This document shows positions 6,344 through 32,291 of a stretch of 32,291 bases of DNA, piece after piece. The stretch comes from a virus. The notes under the pieces were generated by a model that did not search any database, was not told where the DNA came from, and worked only from the letters and a program-made list of their open reading frames with translations. The position numbers and the translations under genes were made by a program. The stretch spans positions 1-32,291 of the IMG/VR virus record IMGVR_UViG_3300042922_001481; one strand, written 5' to 3'. Positions within the stretch are counted from its first letter, which is position 1, and every line of letters begins with the position of its first letter.

Positions 6344-6574
6344 ATGATAATTAACATTACTCTGAAACCTGTTCAAAACATAGACGACGCAAGGCTCAAC
6401 TCGCTCGAGAAAGAACTCAACCGGAGAGTGAACAACTCATTCCCCTCCTCTACCGTCGTTGTCAAAAAAGGCTCCATACCGAAAATCGATATTAAGGGTT
6501 TCCCGAGCGACTCAGACCGAGAACGATTAGGTGTTATTTTTGAAGACGTCTGGCAGGACGTAACATGGCATTAG
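6344..6574 (+). CDS. DinI-like family protein
   Basis: A 76-residue protein with the DinI fold signature: N-terminal beta strand (INITLKP), helix (LNSLEKELNRRVNNSFP), a central strand pair and a C-terminal acidic/aromatic helix (RERLGVIFEDVWQDVTWH) like that of E. coli DinI (EILQETWE). DinI modulates RecA filaments and the co-cleavage of LexA and UmuD. It is the second gene of the LexA-controlled unit and is followed by a strong terminator 30 nt downstream. It may tune the SOS signal during induction or, with the preceding ORF, act as a split antirepressor. Confidence 0.85.
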   Translation: MIINITLKPVQNIDDARLNSLEKELNRRVNNSFPSSTVVVKKGSIPKIDIKGFPSDSDRERLGVIFEDVWQDVTWH

Positions 6575-7470: not shown

Positions 7471-8349
7471 TTAGTCGAATTTTACAGGTGACAATGGTTG
7501 TCTTAATTCTTGATTGTGGAAATGTTCGTAGCGTGGATCTTTACGAGCCTCATCGGAAAATACCGCTCGATTATCTTCTATCCTTAAATGGCCTGAGTCT
7601 AATAAACGATGTAGGTCTGAAGCAAGTGCAATACCGTTTTCAACACTTGGCGCTCCTCCTGCCGCGTGGCTTAAAATGTGACACGCATCAATCGCAAAGC
7701 GAGAGCCAGTAATTGCGCAACATCCCTTCCAATTGGCTATTACGTCCTTTCTGAACCTACCTTGGGCTTTTCGGGTTTTCGTTAGCGAATAACCATCTTC
7801 AACATATGAACGCTGCTCGAATGTTGGTGATGATTCGGTCATATGGGATAACTGCCGAGAACTATGTTGGTTAGCTTTAAATTCTTCCCAAAGACCCTTA
7901 CTAACTATTTTTCCTTGTCGAGCGCACCAGTTGGTGAAACCTTTCTTTTCGTGTTCATCTAAAGACGCCAGCCATTCGCGTAGTTCAGAAATGGCTAAAA
8001 CATTTTGATGTAATTGACGCTTTTGTGGTAGTGGGGCCAACCGATCTTTTTTCTCTCCTCGCCGGTAAGGGGGAAGTTTCAATGTGTCCTTCATTGAAAT
8101 CGTGCCAGCTGCGTTAGTTCGGACGCTGAATTGACCAGCATACTCAACTTTTTTAGCAGTTGTGGGAGTTATTGGCTTCCTATTATTAGCCATCCAAAGT
8201 TGTACTTGATGCAAGACTTCACTGGCTTCCAGCCCCTTACTTATCAATTCTTTGACGTAATTCTTAACCTCTTGTTTATTTGGCTGGTATTCGAATAAAT
8301 ACGGTGAAAGCATTAAAATTTCTTTCATTGAAGTTTTTGTTTCAGCCAT
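7471..8349 (-). CDS. HNH endonuclease-domain accessory protein
   Basis: The C-terminal domain (about residues 196-280) is an HNH nuclease: CCAITG, then DACHILSHAAGG with H224, then N238 (SVENGIAL) and H247 (SDLHRLLDSG). This layout resembles HNH_2-type restriction-like nucleases. The N-terminal about 190 residues are not recognised and may recognise DNA or a signal. The frame is open to 8490 (339 residues), but ATG 8349 has GGGGGA directly upstream and removes a 47-residue leader of low plausibility; this gives 292 residues. It is transcribed against the early operon and lies between the tum region and cos, the tin/old locus of P2. A defence or lysogenic conversion role is inferred from locus and domain. 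A packaging HNH is less likely, since P2-like terminases do not use one. Confidence 0.82.
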   Translation of the reverse strand: MAETKTSMKEILMLSPYLFEYQPNKQEVKNYVKELISKGLEASEVLHQVQLWMANNRKPITPTTAKKVEYAGQFSVRTNAAGTISMKDTLKLPPYRRGEKKDRLAPLPQKRQLHQNVLAISELREWLASLDEHEKKGFTNWCARQGKIVSKGLWEEFKANQHSSRQLSHMTESSPTFEQRSYVEDGYSLTKTRKAQGRFRKDVIANWKGCCAITGSRFAIDACHILSHAAGGAPSVENGIALASDLHRLLDSGHLRIEDNRAVFSDEARKDPRYEHFHNQELRQPLSPVKFD

Positions 8350-8524
8350 AAATCCCCCAATATCTTTTTCTAAAAGTGCACTCAATGCCTCTTTTCTCAG
8401 CGTGCATTCATGGTGCATGGTTTTGCATGAGAATAATGTCTCATTTTTATGAGAGCTCCACCAGTGCTGGCGCGGTTTCAAAGTAGTCATGCAAGTGCAT
8501 CAAAACCGCCCCGTTAAGCGCGCA

Positions 8525-17827: not shown

Positions 17828-19003
17828 CTAACTCAGCTTTATTGATTCAAGGATTTTTGTGGCCTCTTGTTTCTGAATTGCGCTATCTTTAGTAAATTTA
17901 GTAAGAAACGGAAGTTTATCATATTGCAGGTCTGATACCATACCTAGCCCCACTATATCCAATTTATAATGGCCGGGAGTACTTCTGGCCTGATAAACGT
18001 AAATATGATGTTTTTCATGTTGAGTAGCCTTAAGATGATAACAAGCGGAAAGGACTTTCTCTTTGTCGTTACTCGATGTTCGCGAGCCAAAAATCACACC
18101 TTTTATATGTTTAGCGTGAATTTTTATACTTCGTAATGGTGCTGCAAGTTCGCAATTGACAGGTAGTTGTAACCTAACTTCTTTCTCGTACTTCCAGTCT
18201 GAATACTTCACTCTACCAATATCTTCTTCATTATAAGCTTTCAGGCATGAGAGTAAATGTTCTGGATAGCAAGCTTCCCATTCACGGTCGCTGTATGAAA
18301 ACTTAGAAATGATTTTTCTAAACCCATTGGCGCGGACCGGCCTTGCTTTATATATTACATCGAAAACAGGGGCGCTACATTCTGATGATAAACCCATCGA
18401 ATAACAATGTTCGCTGGTTTTTTCAAATGATGGAAAAATCTCTAGATTGCTTTTTAATGTAACGTTACCATCTATTGTTTCATAAATTATCGCAAACCCT
18501 TTTTCAGCGTTGCCGTAATGACCCCACATGGTGAGATTGGTAGCGCTTTTTGAAAAGGATGTCAGGTAATTATTGTCATTTAGTTGCACCTCGAAATCCT
18601 GATTTAGATATGCACTTAATGCCTGCATTGTTTTACGCGCATCCTTATAATCAAGTTCGCTAATCGTCAGTCTAGCGAGTGCATCTGAAAAATCATTTAT
18701 CAGAGATTGGTAGCTGAGGGTTTTGCTTTTTTTACCATTGAGTAAAGAGCGCAGAATTTCGTCCTTGAATGCAAGGAGCGATATAGCAAGTGGGGAGTTA
18801 GGTTCTAAATTAAGCTTTAAACACACTCTAACAATTAAATAATGAACAAACCTTTCCCACACTTCTTTATTGGCATTAAAGACAAACTGTGGTTTACATT
18901 CATGTATGTCATTTAATTCGTTGGGGGAAGCGAAAAAGACTTCCCCATTGCGAAGCATTGATATGCTGAGATCAGAAATTGATGAGTATTTATAAAAAAG
19001 CAT
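17828..19003 (-). CDS. DUF2971 family accessory protein
   Basis: A 391-residue protein of the DUF2971 family. The hallmarks are an N-terminal YKYSSISDLSISMLRNGEVFFASPNELND, here split across residues 4-32, the central TMWGHYGNAEKGFAIIYE (about 158-175), and WKYEKEVRLQLP with GVIFGSR near the C terminus. Its activity is unknown to me; the family appears repeatedly in mobile and defence-associated loci. A start at 19009 is possible, but ATG 19003 has AAGGA at a normal 8-nt distance while 19009 does not. The gene is AT-rich compared with its neighbours, lies in opposite direction to the late operons, and occupies the place of P2 orf30 between S and V, a known non-essential site. This suggests a moron expressed in the lysogen. 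Confidence 0.82.
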   Translation of the reverse strand: MLFYKYSSISDLSISMLRNGEVFFASPNELNDIHECKPQFVFNANKEVWERFVHYLIVRVCLKLNLEPNSPLAISLLAFKDEILRSLLNGKKSKTLSYQSLINDFSDALARLTISELDYKDARKTMQALSAYLNQDFEVQLNDNNYLTSFSKSATNLTMWGHYGNAEKGFAIIYETIDGNVTLKSNLEIFPSFEKTSEHCYSMGLSSECSAPVFDVIYKARPVRANGFRKIISKFSYSDREWEACYPEHLLSCLKAYNEEDIGRVKYSDWKYEKEVRLQLPVNCELAAPLRSIKIHAKHIKGVIFGSRTSSNDKEKVLSACYHLKATQHEKHHIYVYQARSTPGHYKLDIVGLGMVSDLQYDKLPFLTKFTKDSAIQKQEATKILESIKLS

Positions 19004-19025
19004 TCTCATTTTCCTTATTTAAATC

Positions 19026-30896: not shown

Positions 30897-31115
30897 ATGA
30901 TGCACTGTCCATTATGTCATGATGCTTCACATGCACGCTCAAGTCGGTACTTAAGTTCAGAAACAAAAGAGCGGTATCACCAGTGCCAAAACATAAACTG
31001 TGGCTGTACATTTGTGACTCATGAGACGCTTGCAAGATTCATTGTTAAGCCGGGAGATGTAGTACCTGCTCCCCCCCATCCTTCAAAGTACAACCAGCAA
31101 AATTTATGGCTTTAA
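30897..31115 (+). CDS. ogr: Late gene activator Ogr/Delta
   Basis: Zinc-finger transcription activator of the four late operons. 72 residues (P2 Ogr 72). The metal-binding cysteines are C4, C7, C30 and C35 (MHCPLCHDASHARSSRYLS, then HQCQNINCGCTF), the C-x2-C-x22-C-x4-C pattern of the family. It binds upstream of the -35 of late promoters and contacts the RNA polymerase alpha subunit. GGGGGA lies 7-10 nt before the two adjacent ATG codons; the second ATG (30900) would give 71 residues. Cognate dyads are proposed here upstream of P/O and V. Confidence 0.96.
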   Translation: MMHCPLCHDASHARSSRYLSSETKERYHQCQNINCGCTFVTHETLARFIVKPGDVVPAPPHPSKYNQQNLWL

Positions 31116-31116
31116 G

Positions 31117-31145
31117 AGTATGACCTGCGTATGCAGGTCATTACT
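31117..31145. terminator. Hairpin between ogr and the TIR gene
   Basis: ATGACCTGC (31120-31128) pairs with GCAGGTCAT (31133-31141) around GTAT, extended by AGT/ACT after a one-base bulge. It lies between convergent genes and is probably a bidirectional terminator, although T runs are short. Confidence 0.6.
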
Positions 31146-31155
31146 TATAATGAGC

Positions 31156-32001
31156 TCAAAAGGGTATGTCATCTGAGAAATCAAGTGGAGTTGTATTTGT
31201 TTTTGCTTTTGGCGCTCGTTTTGATAATAGTTCTTCATGCTCAAGTAATTTATCAATGCCTGTATCGGTGATTGTGTATGCGTAGTATTCATCCCCGTTA
31301 TTATTATCTACTTGAAGTGTGCGTTCTATTAAAGACATACGTTCAAGCTTAATCAACTGGAAGTTTACCAAGCTTTCATCCATACCTTTCAGAGCGTATG
31401 TTATTGAATGAGTGGACATCCCCTCAGGATATTTTGTGTGAGTCTCTAAACATACAGCTAAAACTTTTATTGTCGCCTCGTTGATTTCATAGCTATAAGG
31501 ATTAACGATTGCGCGTTCATTTGAATTAAGTGAAATCCTGTTCAACCCCCCTTGAGTTTTCATTGCCTTGTCCATGCTATGGCAAGCAGGCACAAGTGCT
31601 GCGTCGACGTTAGCATCTGAACGATTAGCATCGTACTCTGCCGAAGTTATGCCTAAAAGGTCACTTGGTAATTTAAGTTCTACGCCTCGTGGTTTAACGA
31701 TAAAACATCTTTTGATACCTATGGCGCCAATGAATAAGCCTAACTCAAATAAAACATTATCCCTAACAACATGTTCATGCTTACCTCTGGACTCAATCAA
31801 ATCATCTGGCTGGAACACAAAGACCGCAAAATCCGTTGTTGCAGACCTAGTAATAAGATCATTAATCGTTGTACTGGAGAGCGTAAAATTTCCACTATTC
31901 CAAGGGGTAACTTCATAGTCATGCTCAAAATTTGTGCTGATCGCTCTAGTAACTGCCAAACTTTCACTGGATGAAGCTATAAAGACCTTCGGCTTGACCA
32001 T
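31156..32001 (-). CDS. TIR-domain (CAP12/Pycsar-type) protein with SSB-like C-terminal tip
   Basis: 281 residues. Residues 1-155 form a TIR-like domain of the nucleotide-binding CAP12/Pycsar type: VFIASSSESLAVTRAIS, VTPWNSGNF, DFAVFVFQPDD (57-67) and RDNVLFELGLFIG, with the probable catalytic E86. TIR domains of this kind cleave NAD+ in anti-phage systems. Residues about 165-256 look like a winged helix (YALKGMDESLVNFQLIKLER, YYAYTITDTGIDKLLEHEE). A basic linker (KRAPKAKTNTT) leads to the last eight residues DFSDDIPF, almost the DFDDDIPF tip of E. coli SSB. AGGAG lies 6 nt before the ATG. The gene is AT-rich, read against ogr, and lies between the late genes and attR. Defence by NAD+ loss and docking to SSB partners are inferences. 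Confidence 0.87.
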   Translation of the reverse strand: MVKPKVFIASSSESLAVTRAISTNFEHDYEVTPWNSGNFTLSSTTINDLITRSATTDFAVFVFQPDDLIESRGKHEHVVRDNVLFELGLFIGAIGIKRCFIVKPRGVELKLPSDLLGITSAEYDANRSDANVDAALVPACHSMDKAMKTQGGLNRISLNSNERAIVNPYSYEINEATIKVLAVCLETHTKYPEGMSTHSITYALKGMDESLVNFQLIKLERMSLIERTLQVDNNNGDEYYAYTITDTGIDKLLEHEELLSKRAPKAKTNTTPLDFSDDIPF

Positions 32002-32083: not shown

Positions 32084-32102
32084 CATGGACATTATGTGGA
32101 CA
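32084..32102. promoter_or_regulatory. Integrase arm-type sites near attR
   Basis: TGTGGACA (32095-32102) matches the arm-type Int consensus known for P2, and CATGGACA (32084-32091) is a weaker copy 11 bp away. A 12-base direct repeat TGGACATTATGT is found here (32086-32097) and in the int 3' end (9-20). The core of attR should lie just to the right, before or within the rplS terminator. Confidence 0.6.

Positions 32103-32180: not shown

Positions 32181-32291
<111 letters not shown>

Follow-up and report, generated by a model that had tools for sequence, protein, structure and literature searches.

In SfSTING, a TIR-STING protein of the Cap12 type, the NADase pocket is built from residues S10, R78, N80 and E84 together with D110 contributed by the opposing monomer, and NADase activity requires the formation of filaments (PMC9402430). 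In P2-like phages, TIR genes with an experimentally shown role in defence have been found in the cargo hotspot (PMC9122126), and the AbpAB, Retron-Eco8 and Hna systems are known to be set off by phage SSB (PMC10732053, PMC13158370, PMC13381803). The C-terminal tip of SSB itself is recognized by partner proteins through a Phe-binding pocket, with a basic lip that receives the alpha-carboxylate and a basic ridge that receives the Asp residues; binding is weakened or abolished when the terminal Phe is missing or the penultimate Pro is altered, and of the disordered linker only the length is needed, not the sequence, while the tip is essential (PMC10164576). The protein described here combines a TIR domain of the Cap12 type with a C-terminus resembling this tip.

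The window, i.e. the whole stretch of 32,291 nucleotides that was analyzed, contains a P2-like prophage with int and CI at its left end, integrated next to the host rplS gene. The 3′ end of rplS, recognized from its translation, lies outside the prophage (positions 32181–32291, minus strand) and encodes what we take to be ribosomal protein L19. The attR core TGGACATTATGT (32086–32097) is a direct repeat of positions 9–20 beside int. Between attR and the ogr/delta late activator gene (30897–31115, plus strand; PF04606, E 1.7e-20) there is an intact ORF (31156–32001, minus strand; ATG start, TGA stop) encoding a protein of 281 aa, in which a TIR domain, a winged helix, a linker and an SSB-like tip follow one another, and whose C-terminus reads ...KRAPKAKTNTTPLDFSDDIPF. 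The ogr and TIR genes are convergent, with a palindrome, ATGACCTGCGTATGCAGGTCAT (31120–31141), between them; as read from the sequence it may be a shared terminator, although the terminator scan made no call at this position.

The sequence-only reading had described this gene as moron cargo, placed beside attR, reversed and AT-rich, and every element of that description was borne out. The orientation of the gene is opposite to that of ogr and D, so that it reads against the late genes, and its GC content is 39.5%, compared with 55.4% in the phage core. Its location between ogr and attR, its opposite orientation and its aberrant GC content identify it as prophage cargo. In agreement with this assignment, a tblastn search of 50,697 phage records returned no copy or relative of the gene. 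No relative was found in E. coli genomes at the DNA level either, and a search for a LexA box at the TIR gene gave nothing convincing.

Other parts of the prophage also carry genes of possible interest for defence or SOS regulation. A gene of 37.5% GC located among the tail genes (17828–19009, minus strand) encodes a 393-aa protein matching the PADLOC defence candidate PDC-S31 (E 4e-27) and Pfam DUF2971, and the prophage probably carries in it a second cargo gene for defence. The gene for an HNH_2 nuclease-like protein (7471–8490, minus strand; 42% GC) lies between those for replication and the portal, close to the region where P2-like phages have a known defence hotspot. In addition, the early region contains a gene for a DinI-like SOS regulator (6344–6574, plus strand).

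The N-terminal part of the 281-aa protein (residues 5–124; 31630–31989, minus strand) is a CAP12/Pycsar-type TIR domain, matching PF10137 (CAP12-PCTIR_TIR) with an E value of 5.9e-32 and a score of 110.6 bits against a cut-off of 24.7; all ten members of the homologue set described below match this profile. The closest solved structures, both by sequence and by fold, are the TIR-STING Cap12 proteins 7un8 and 9lmq. Alignment with SfSTING placed E86 (31744–31746, minus strand), within the motif LFELGLF, at the position of the catalytic E84, in line with the earlier proposal of an N-terminal TIR domain with this Glu in FELGLF; it is therefore the predicted catalytic residue. The remaining pocket residues are S11, R80, N82 and D114, equivalent to SfSTING S10, R78, N80 and D110, and all five are invariant across the ten homologues (alignment A7). 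Given its family and the conservation of the complete SfSTING active site, the protein is predicted to be an NADase.

The last eight residues, DFSDDIPF (residues 274–281; 31159–31182, minus strand), had been singled out as a near copy of the SSB acidic tip, and the tail searches as well as homologue conservation upheld this claim. Seven of the eight positions are identical to those of E. coli SSB (DFDDDIPF); for a protein of average composition, the chance of at least such a match (7/8) at the C-terminus is about 6e-9. As in the SSB-Ct motif, Asp residues and a hydrophobic residue lead up to a C-terminal Pro-Phe whose carboxylate is free. When a 27-residue tail query was compared with 177,635 PDB sequences, the top two matches were SSBs (7f2n and 1eqq; E 0.02–0.035), the alignment reaching the chain end in one and stopping within 6 residues of it in the other. 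When the whole protein was scanned against NCBIfam and PHROG, weak matches to SSB models (E 0.13 and 0.19) were obtained over residues 260/261–281, and these alignments extend to the last position of the SSB profile. The C-terminal half, compared with 50,697 phage genomes, produced four matches, all to SSBs by way of the tail. Three are annotated as SSB; the fourth, from Salmonella phage gmqsjt-1, is labelled "hypothetical protein" but is an SSB according to PHROGs and ends in ...MDFSDDIPF, so that its last eight residues are identical to those of the TIR protein.

A search of the whole window with PF00436 (OB-fold SSB) gave no match, hence no SSB gene was found there. A recent fusion to an ssb gene was considered as the source of the tip but is not supported: the tip codons differ among lineages, the linkers are unrelated and the window has no identified ssb gene. 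As a separate observation, two phage protein families without an assigned function, phrog_2544 and phrog_4477 (362 and 393 positions), matched by L071:375-866 in PHROGs, also match an SSB tail at their C-termini; further non-SSB proteins may carry such tails.

We propose that the gene encodes a stand-alone CAP12-type TIR NADase whose SSB-tip mimic docks on SSB partner proteins, and that clustering on these partners aborts infection; taken as a whole, we consider this proposal about evenly balanced between right and wrong. In place of the nucleotide-sensing half of a CAP12-type effector there would here be a winged helix, a flexible spacer and the tip mimic. By analogy with the established biochemistry of SSB-Ct, and with good support at the sequence level, the tip would dock in the pocket common to ExoI, RecQ, PriA, RecO, RecG, Pol III chi and others, whether encoded by the host or by a phage. 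In an uninfected lysogen, abundant host SSB would outcompete the tip, leaving the TIR protein dispersed and inactive. Upon infection by a competing phage, pockets might be freed because phage ssDNA titrates host SSB or phage SSB takes its place; alternatively, phage proteins with SSB-Ct pockets could provide newly made ones. Such a trigger, freed or phage-made, is speculative. Several TIR copies would then cluster on the replication or recombination machinery, and self-association of their TIR domains would lead to NAD+ depletion and abortion of the infection. Activation by clustering is suggested by analogy with the filament requirement of SfSTING, and a role in anti-phage defence would fit both the prophage setting and the precedents mentioned above. 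The more specific idea, that this is a single-gene immune sensor in which the tip mimic is the sensing element and the NADase is armed by SSB-partner pockets during phage replication, is put forward tentatively, as being somewhat more likely wrong than right.

The distribution of the tip was analyzed in ten distinct intact TIR-winged-helix proteins (the window protein, L003, L004, L042, L043, L044, L025, L005, L006 and L029), a small set drawn from viral contigs and plasmids. A single-sequence scan of genome contigs returned only distant TIR proteins. Besides a 99% copy (L002), the closest relatives are L003 (76%) and L004 (77%), found at the same location in other P2-like contigs and both ending in DFSDDIPF. 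More distant members are encoded by a contig with a P2-like gpD gene (L042; 41%, SFDDDIPF), a Mu-like prophage with Mu portal and gpF genes (L043; 39%, DFDNDIPF), a contig with a phage integrase gene (L044; 44%, DMDDDIPF), a P2-like prophage (L025; 48%, DLSDKPPF) and the Vibrio conjugative plasmid pAQU2 (L005; 47%, GFKNDVPF). The tip has been lost in a protein of a Spartinivicinus plasmid (L006; 47%, SYDEASFL) and in one of a P2-like contig (L029; 55%, ...GLSEDF). A further homologue from a Pseudomonas fragi plasmid (L007, 6001–6903), whose C-terminus was lost beside an IS30 transposase gene, was left out of the count.

A Pro-Phe end is thus present in eight of the ten intact homologues, down to 39% identity, but in none of the 20 TIR relatives whose C-terminal domains differ from theirs (Fisher p 8e-6; if the window clade is treated as a single case, 7e-5). 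The strongest tips, those of the window clade, L042, L043 and L044, each match DFDDDIPF at seven of eight positions at the exact C-terminus, whereas those of L005 and L025 are weaker (4/8). Among the eight tip-bearing sequences, Phe at −1 and Pro at −2 are invariant, and seven have Ile or Val at −3 and seven an Asp at −4. The expectation that homologues would share the tip was therefore mostly borne out: eight of them end in PF behind unrelated linkers, but L006 and L029 lack the tip. Either the tip is dispensable in some lineages, or these two proteins have been re-specialised or have decayed. In the phylogenetic tree, the TIR-winged-helix architecture forms one clade (99/99) with weakly resolved inner branches, and a history of one gain and two losses of the tip fits this topology.

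Comparison of close relatives showed that the tip and the linker evolve differently. Between the window protein and L003, 10 of 13 linker residues differ, compared with none of 10 tip residues, despite four synonymous changes in the tip codons; for L004 the differences number 9 of 13 in the linker and 1 of 10 in the tip. Linker lengths also vary among the homologues. Judged from these alignments, retention of the tip while the linker drifts is the pattern of SSB itself. Such data leave very little room for the view that this C-terminus arose by chance or hitch-hiking and has no function, which we regard as most improbable. The tip-less L006 and L029 are what would speak for it, but a match of at least 7/8, expected at about 6e-9 per protein, was seen in four separate lineages, and the tip amino acids remained unchanged through synonymous codon changes while the linker diverged; a chance origin was rejected on these two grounds, the match probability and the codon pattern. 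The persistence of an SSB-like tail in distant relatives suggests that it probably plugs the enzyme into the replication and repair machinery, through which invading viruses would be detected or reached.

The loci examined comprise P2-like, Mu-like and plasmid contexts, and no conserved partner gene was found among them, as expected for a single-gene effector. Three of them have features of their own. In Spartinivicinus plasmid pB, a PD-T7-4 homologue (L006:6837-7505; E 6e-91) begins 5 bases after the tip-less TIR gene; perhaps the pair is a two-gene unit that has lost the tip. In the Mu-like prophage, ORFs of 420 and 352 aa without a Pfam or PADLOC match lie directly upstream of the TIR gene (L043:1604-3924), making a defence cassette possible. 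In L025 (4581–8349), the TIR gene is located between int and gene D and not at the host junction, and the int/att order is unlike that of the window.

The middle of the protein (residues 170–254; 31240–31494, minus strand) is net acidic and predicted to be a winged helix-turn-helix of the MarR/PadR type. An AlphaFold2 model, for which Foldseek identified MarR/PadR folds as the nearest to this domain, and weak family hits agree with the winged-helix-like middle proposed from the sequence. The domain has a net charge of −3 to −8 in all ten homologues, with a near-neutral recognition helix, and DNA binding by it, considered as a candidate function, is not supported by this charge. The same property weighs on one of the two main rivals to the docking proposal, according to which the tip serves for localisation only, placing the TIR protein at replication forks, while the winged helix or the TIR domain senses a phage protein or DNA structure. 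The winged helix, which the family has kept as a domain, must do something, and with the sensor elsewhere in the protein L006 and L029 could more readily do without the tip; sensing of DNA, however, is not supported by an acidic domain with a nearly neutral recognition helix, and no phage ligand is known. We consider this explanation unlikely, though a serious one.

The linker (residues 255–273; 31183–31239, minus strand) is mostly predicted to be disordered from residue 262 and cannot be aligned among the homologues. It had been described as basic and flexible. Flexibility is supported by the prediction of disorder, which covers most of residues 262–281, and the charge is +4 in the window protein, but homologue linkers are not consistently basic, so the basic character does not hold for the family.

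Phages encode SSB-linked recombination factors, and the other main rival gives these a direct part: the tip would act as bait, folding back onto its own or a paired subunit and keeping the TIR domain off until a phage protein that binds SSB tips pulls it away and the NADase is released. In this case the tip itself would do the sensing, instead of tethering the protein to host hubs. An exposed C-terminus of this kind would explain the likeness to precisely that part of SSB which phage recombination and replication proteins must bind, and autoinhibition agrees with all the conservation data. Against it, the TIR domain is, like the winged helix, net acidic in all ten homologues, so that neither domain suggests an obvious basic groove to hold the acidic tip, which argues mildly against such folding back. 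AlphaFold2 leaves the tip at a pLDDT below 50, which is weak evidence since a single chain was modelled, and two homologues manage without a tip. This explanation, too, appears improbable to us, without being far-fetched.

The intact active site bears on a further possibility, that the protein competes with SSB: the several tips of an oligomer would poison the phage or the host by stripping partners from SSB, and the TIR domain would serve chiefly for oligomerisation or toxicity. A prophage moron product is likely to be far scarcer than SSB, and full retention of the NADase active site indicates that catalysis matters; both speak against competition, which we judge very unlikely. In its favour, an assembly with many tips would bind with higher avidity, as tetrameric SSB does, and blocking of the pockets would be damaging, since E. 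coli cannot survive without the SSB tip (PMC10164576). Returning to the docking proposal, the sequence-only reading, in which the protein docks on the SSB-binding hub and would be switched on when a superinfecting phage disturbs replication forks or SSB partners, is on the whole partly supported.

If the docking proposal is true, this would be the first immune effector with an SSB-tip mimic, as far as found in the open-access literature, where no description of one was encountered. Immunity would be wired directly into the SSB interaction hub, and the modular TIR effectors of prophages and plasmids would gain a new type of sensor. The C-terminus described here suggests a testable answer to the question of how stand-alone bacterial TIR proteins sense phages, as the SSB hub consists of few, well-mapped partners with solved pockets and a known dependence on Phe.

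Comparison with known systems defines what is shared and what is not. Cap12/TIR-STING (SfSTING) is the best PDB match and has an N-terminal TIR domain of the same Pfam family with the five active-site equivalents, but the window protein lacks a STING domain, its C-terminal half consisting of the winged helix and SSB-like tip; accordingly, the NCBIfam Cap12 equivalogs score only 113.5 and 89.5 against a cut-off of 450. PycTIR of Pycsar has a TIR domain of the same family (PADLOC PycTIR, E 9e-38), located C-terminally, whereas that of the window protein is N-terminal. In the window, no match was obtained with the SMODS profile for a CD-NTase or with PF00211 (guanylate-cyclase-type) for a Pycsar-type cyclase, and a Pfam scan of the TIR protein found no cyclic-nucleotide-binding domain. 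With no cyclase gene found in the window, and with neither a STING nor a cNMP-sensor domain in the protein, membership of CBASS or Pycsar was rejected; of the earlier CAP12/Pycsar assignment the domain family stands and the system does not. The TIR part also matches the PADLOC candidate PDC-S35 (E 2e-12), but the match is confined to the C-terminal region of those models, which places their TIR domain at the opposite end.

AbpAB, Retron-Eco8 and Hna resemble the proposed system in coupling SSB/ssDNA biology to abortive infection (PMC10732053, PMC13158370, PMC13381803). They respond to phage SSB, however, and act through nucleases or helicases instead of TIR NADases. We know of none among them with an SSB-tip mimic of its own. 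With bacterial SSB, the window protein shares the last eight residues, a disordered spacer ahead of them and a free C-terminal Phe, but not the OB fold. The TIR domain family is already known, and it is its pairing with an SSB-tip mimic that is, as far as found, new.
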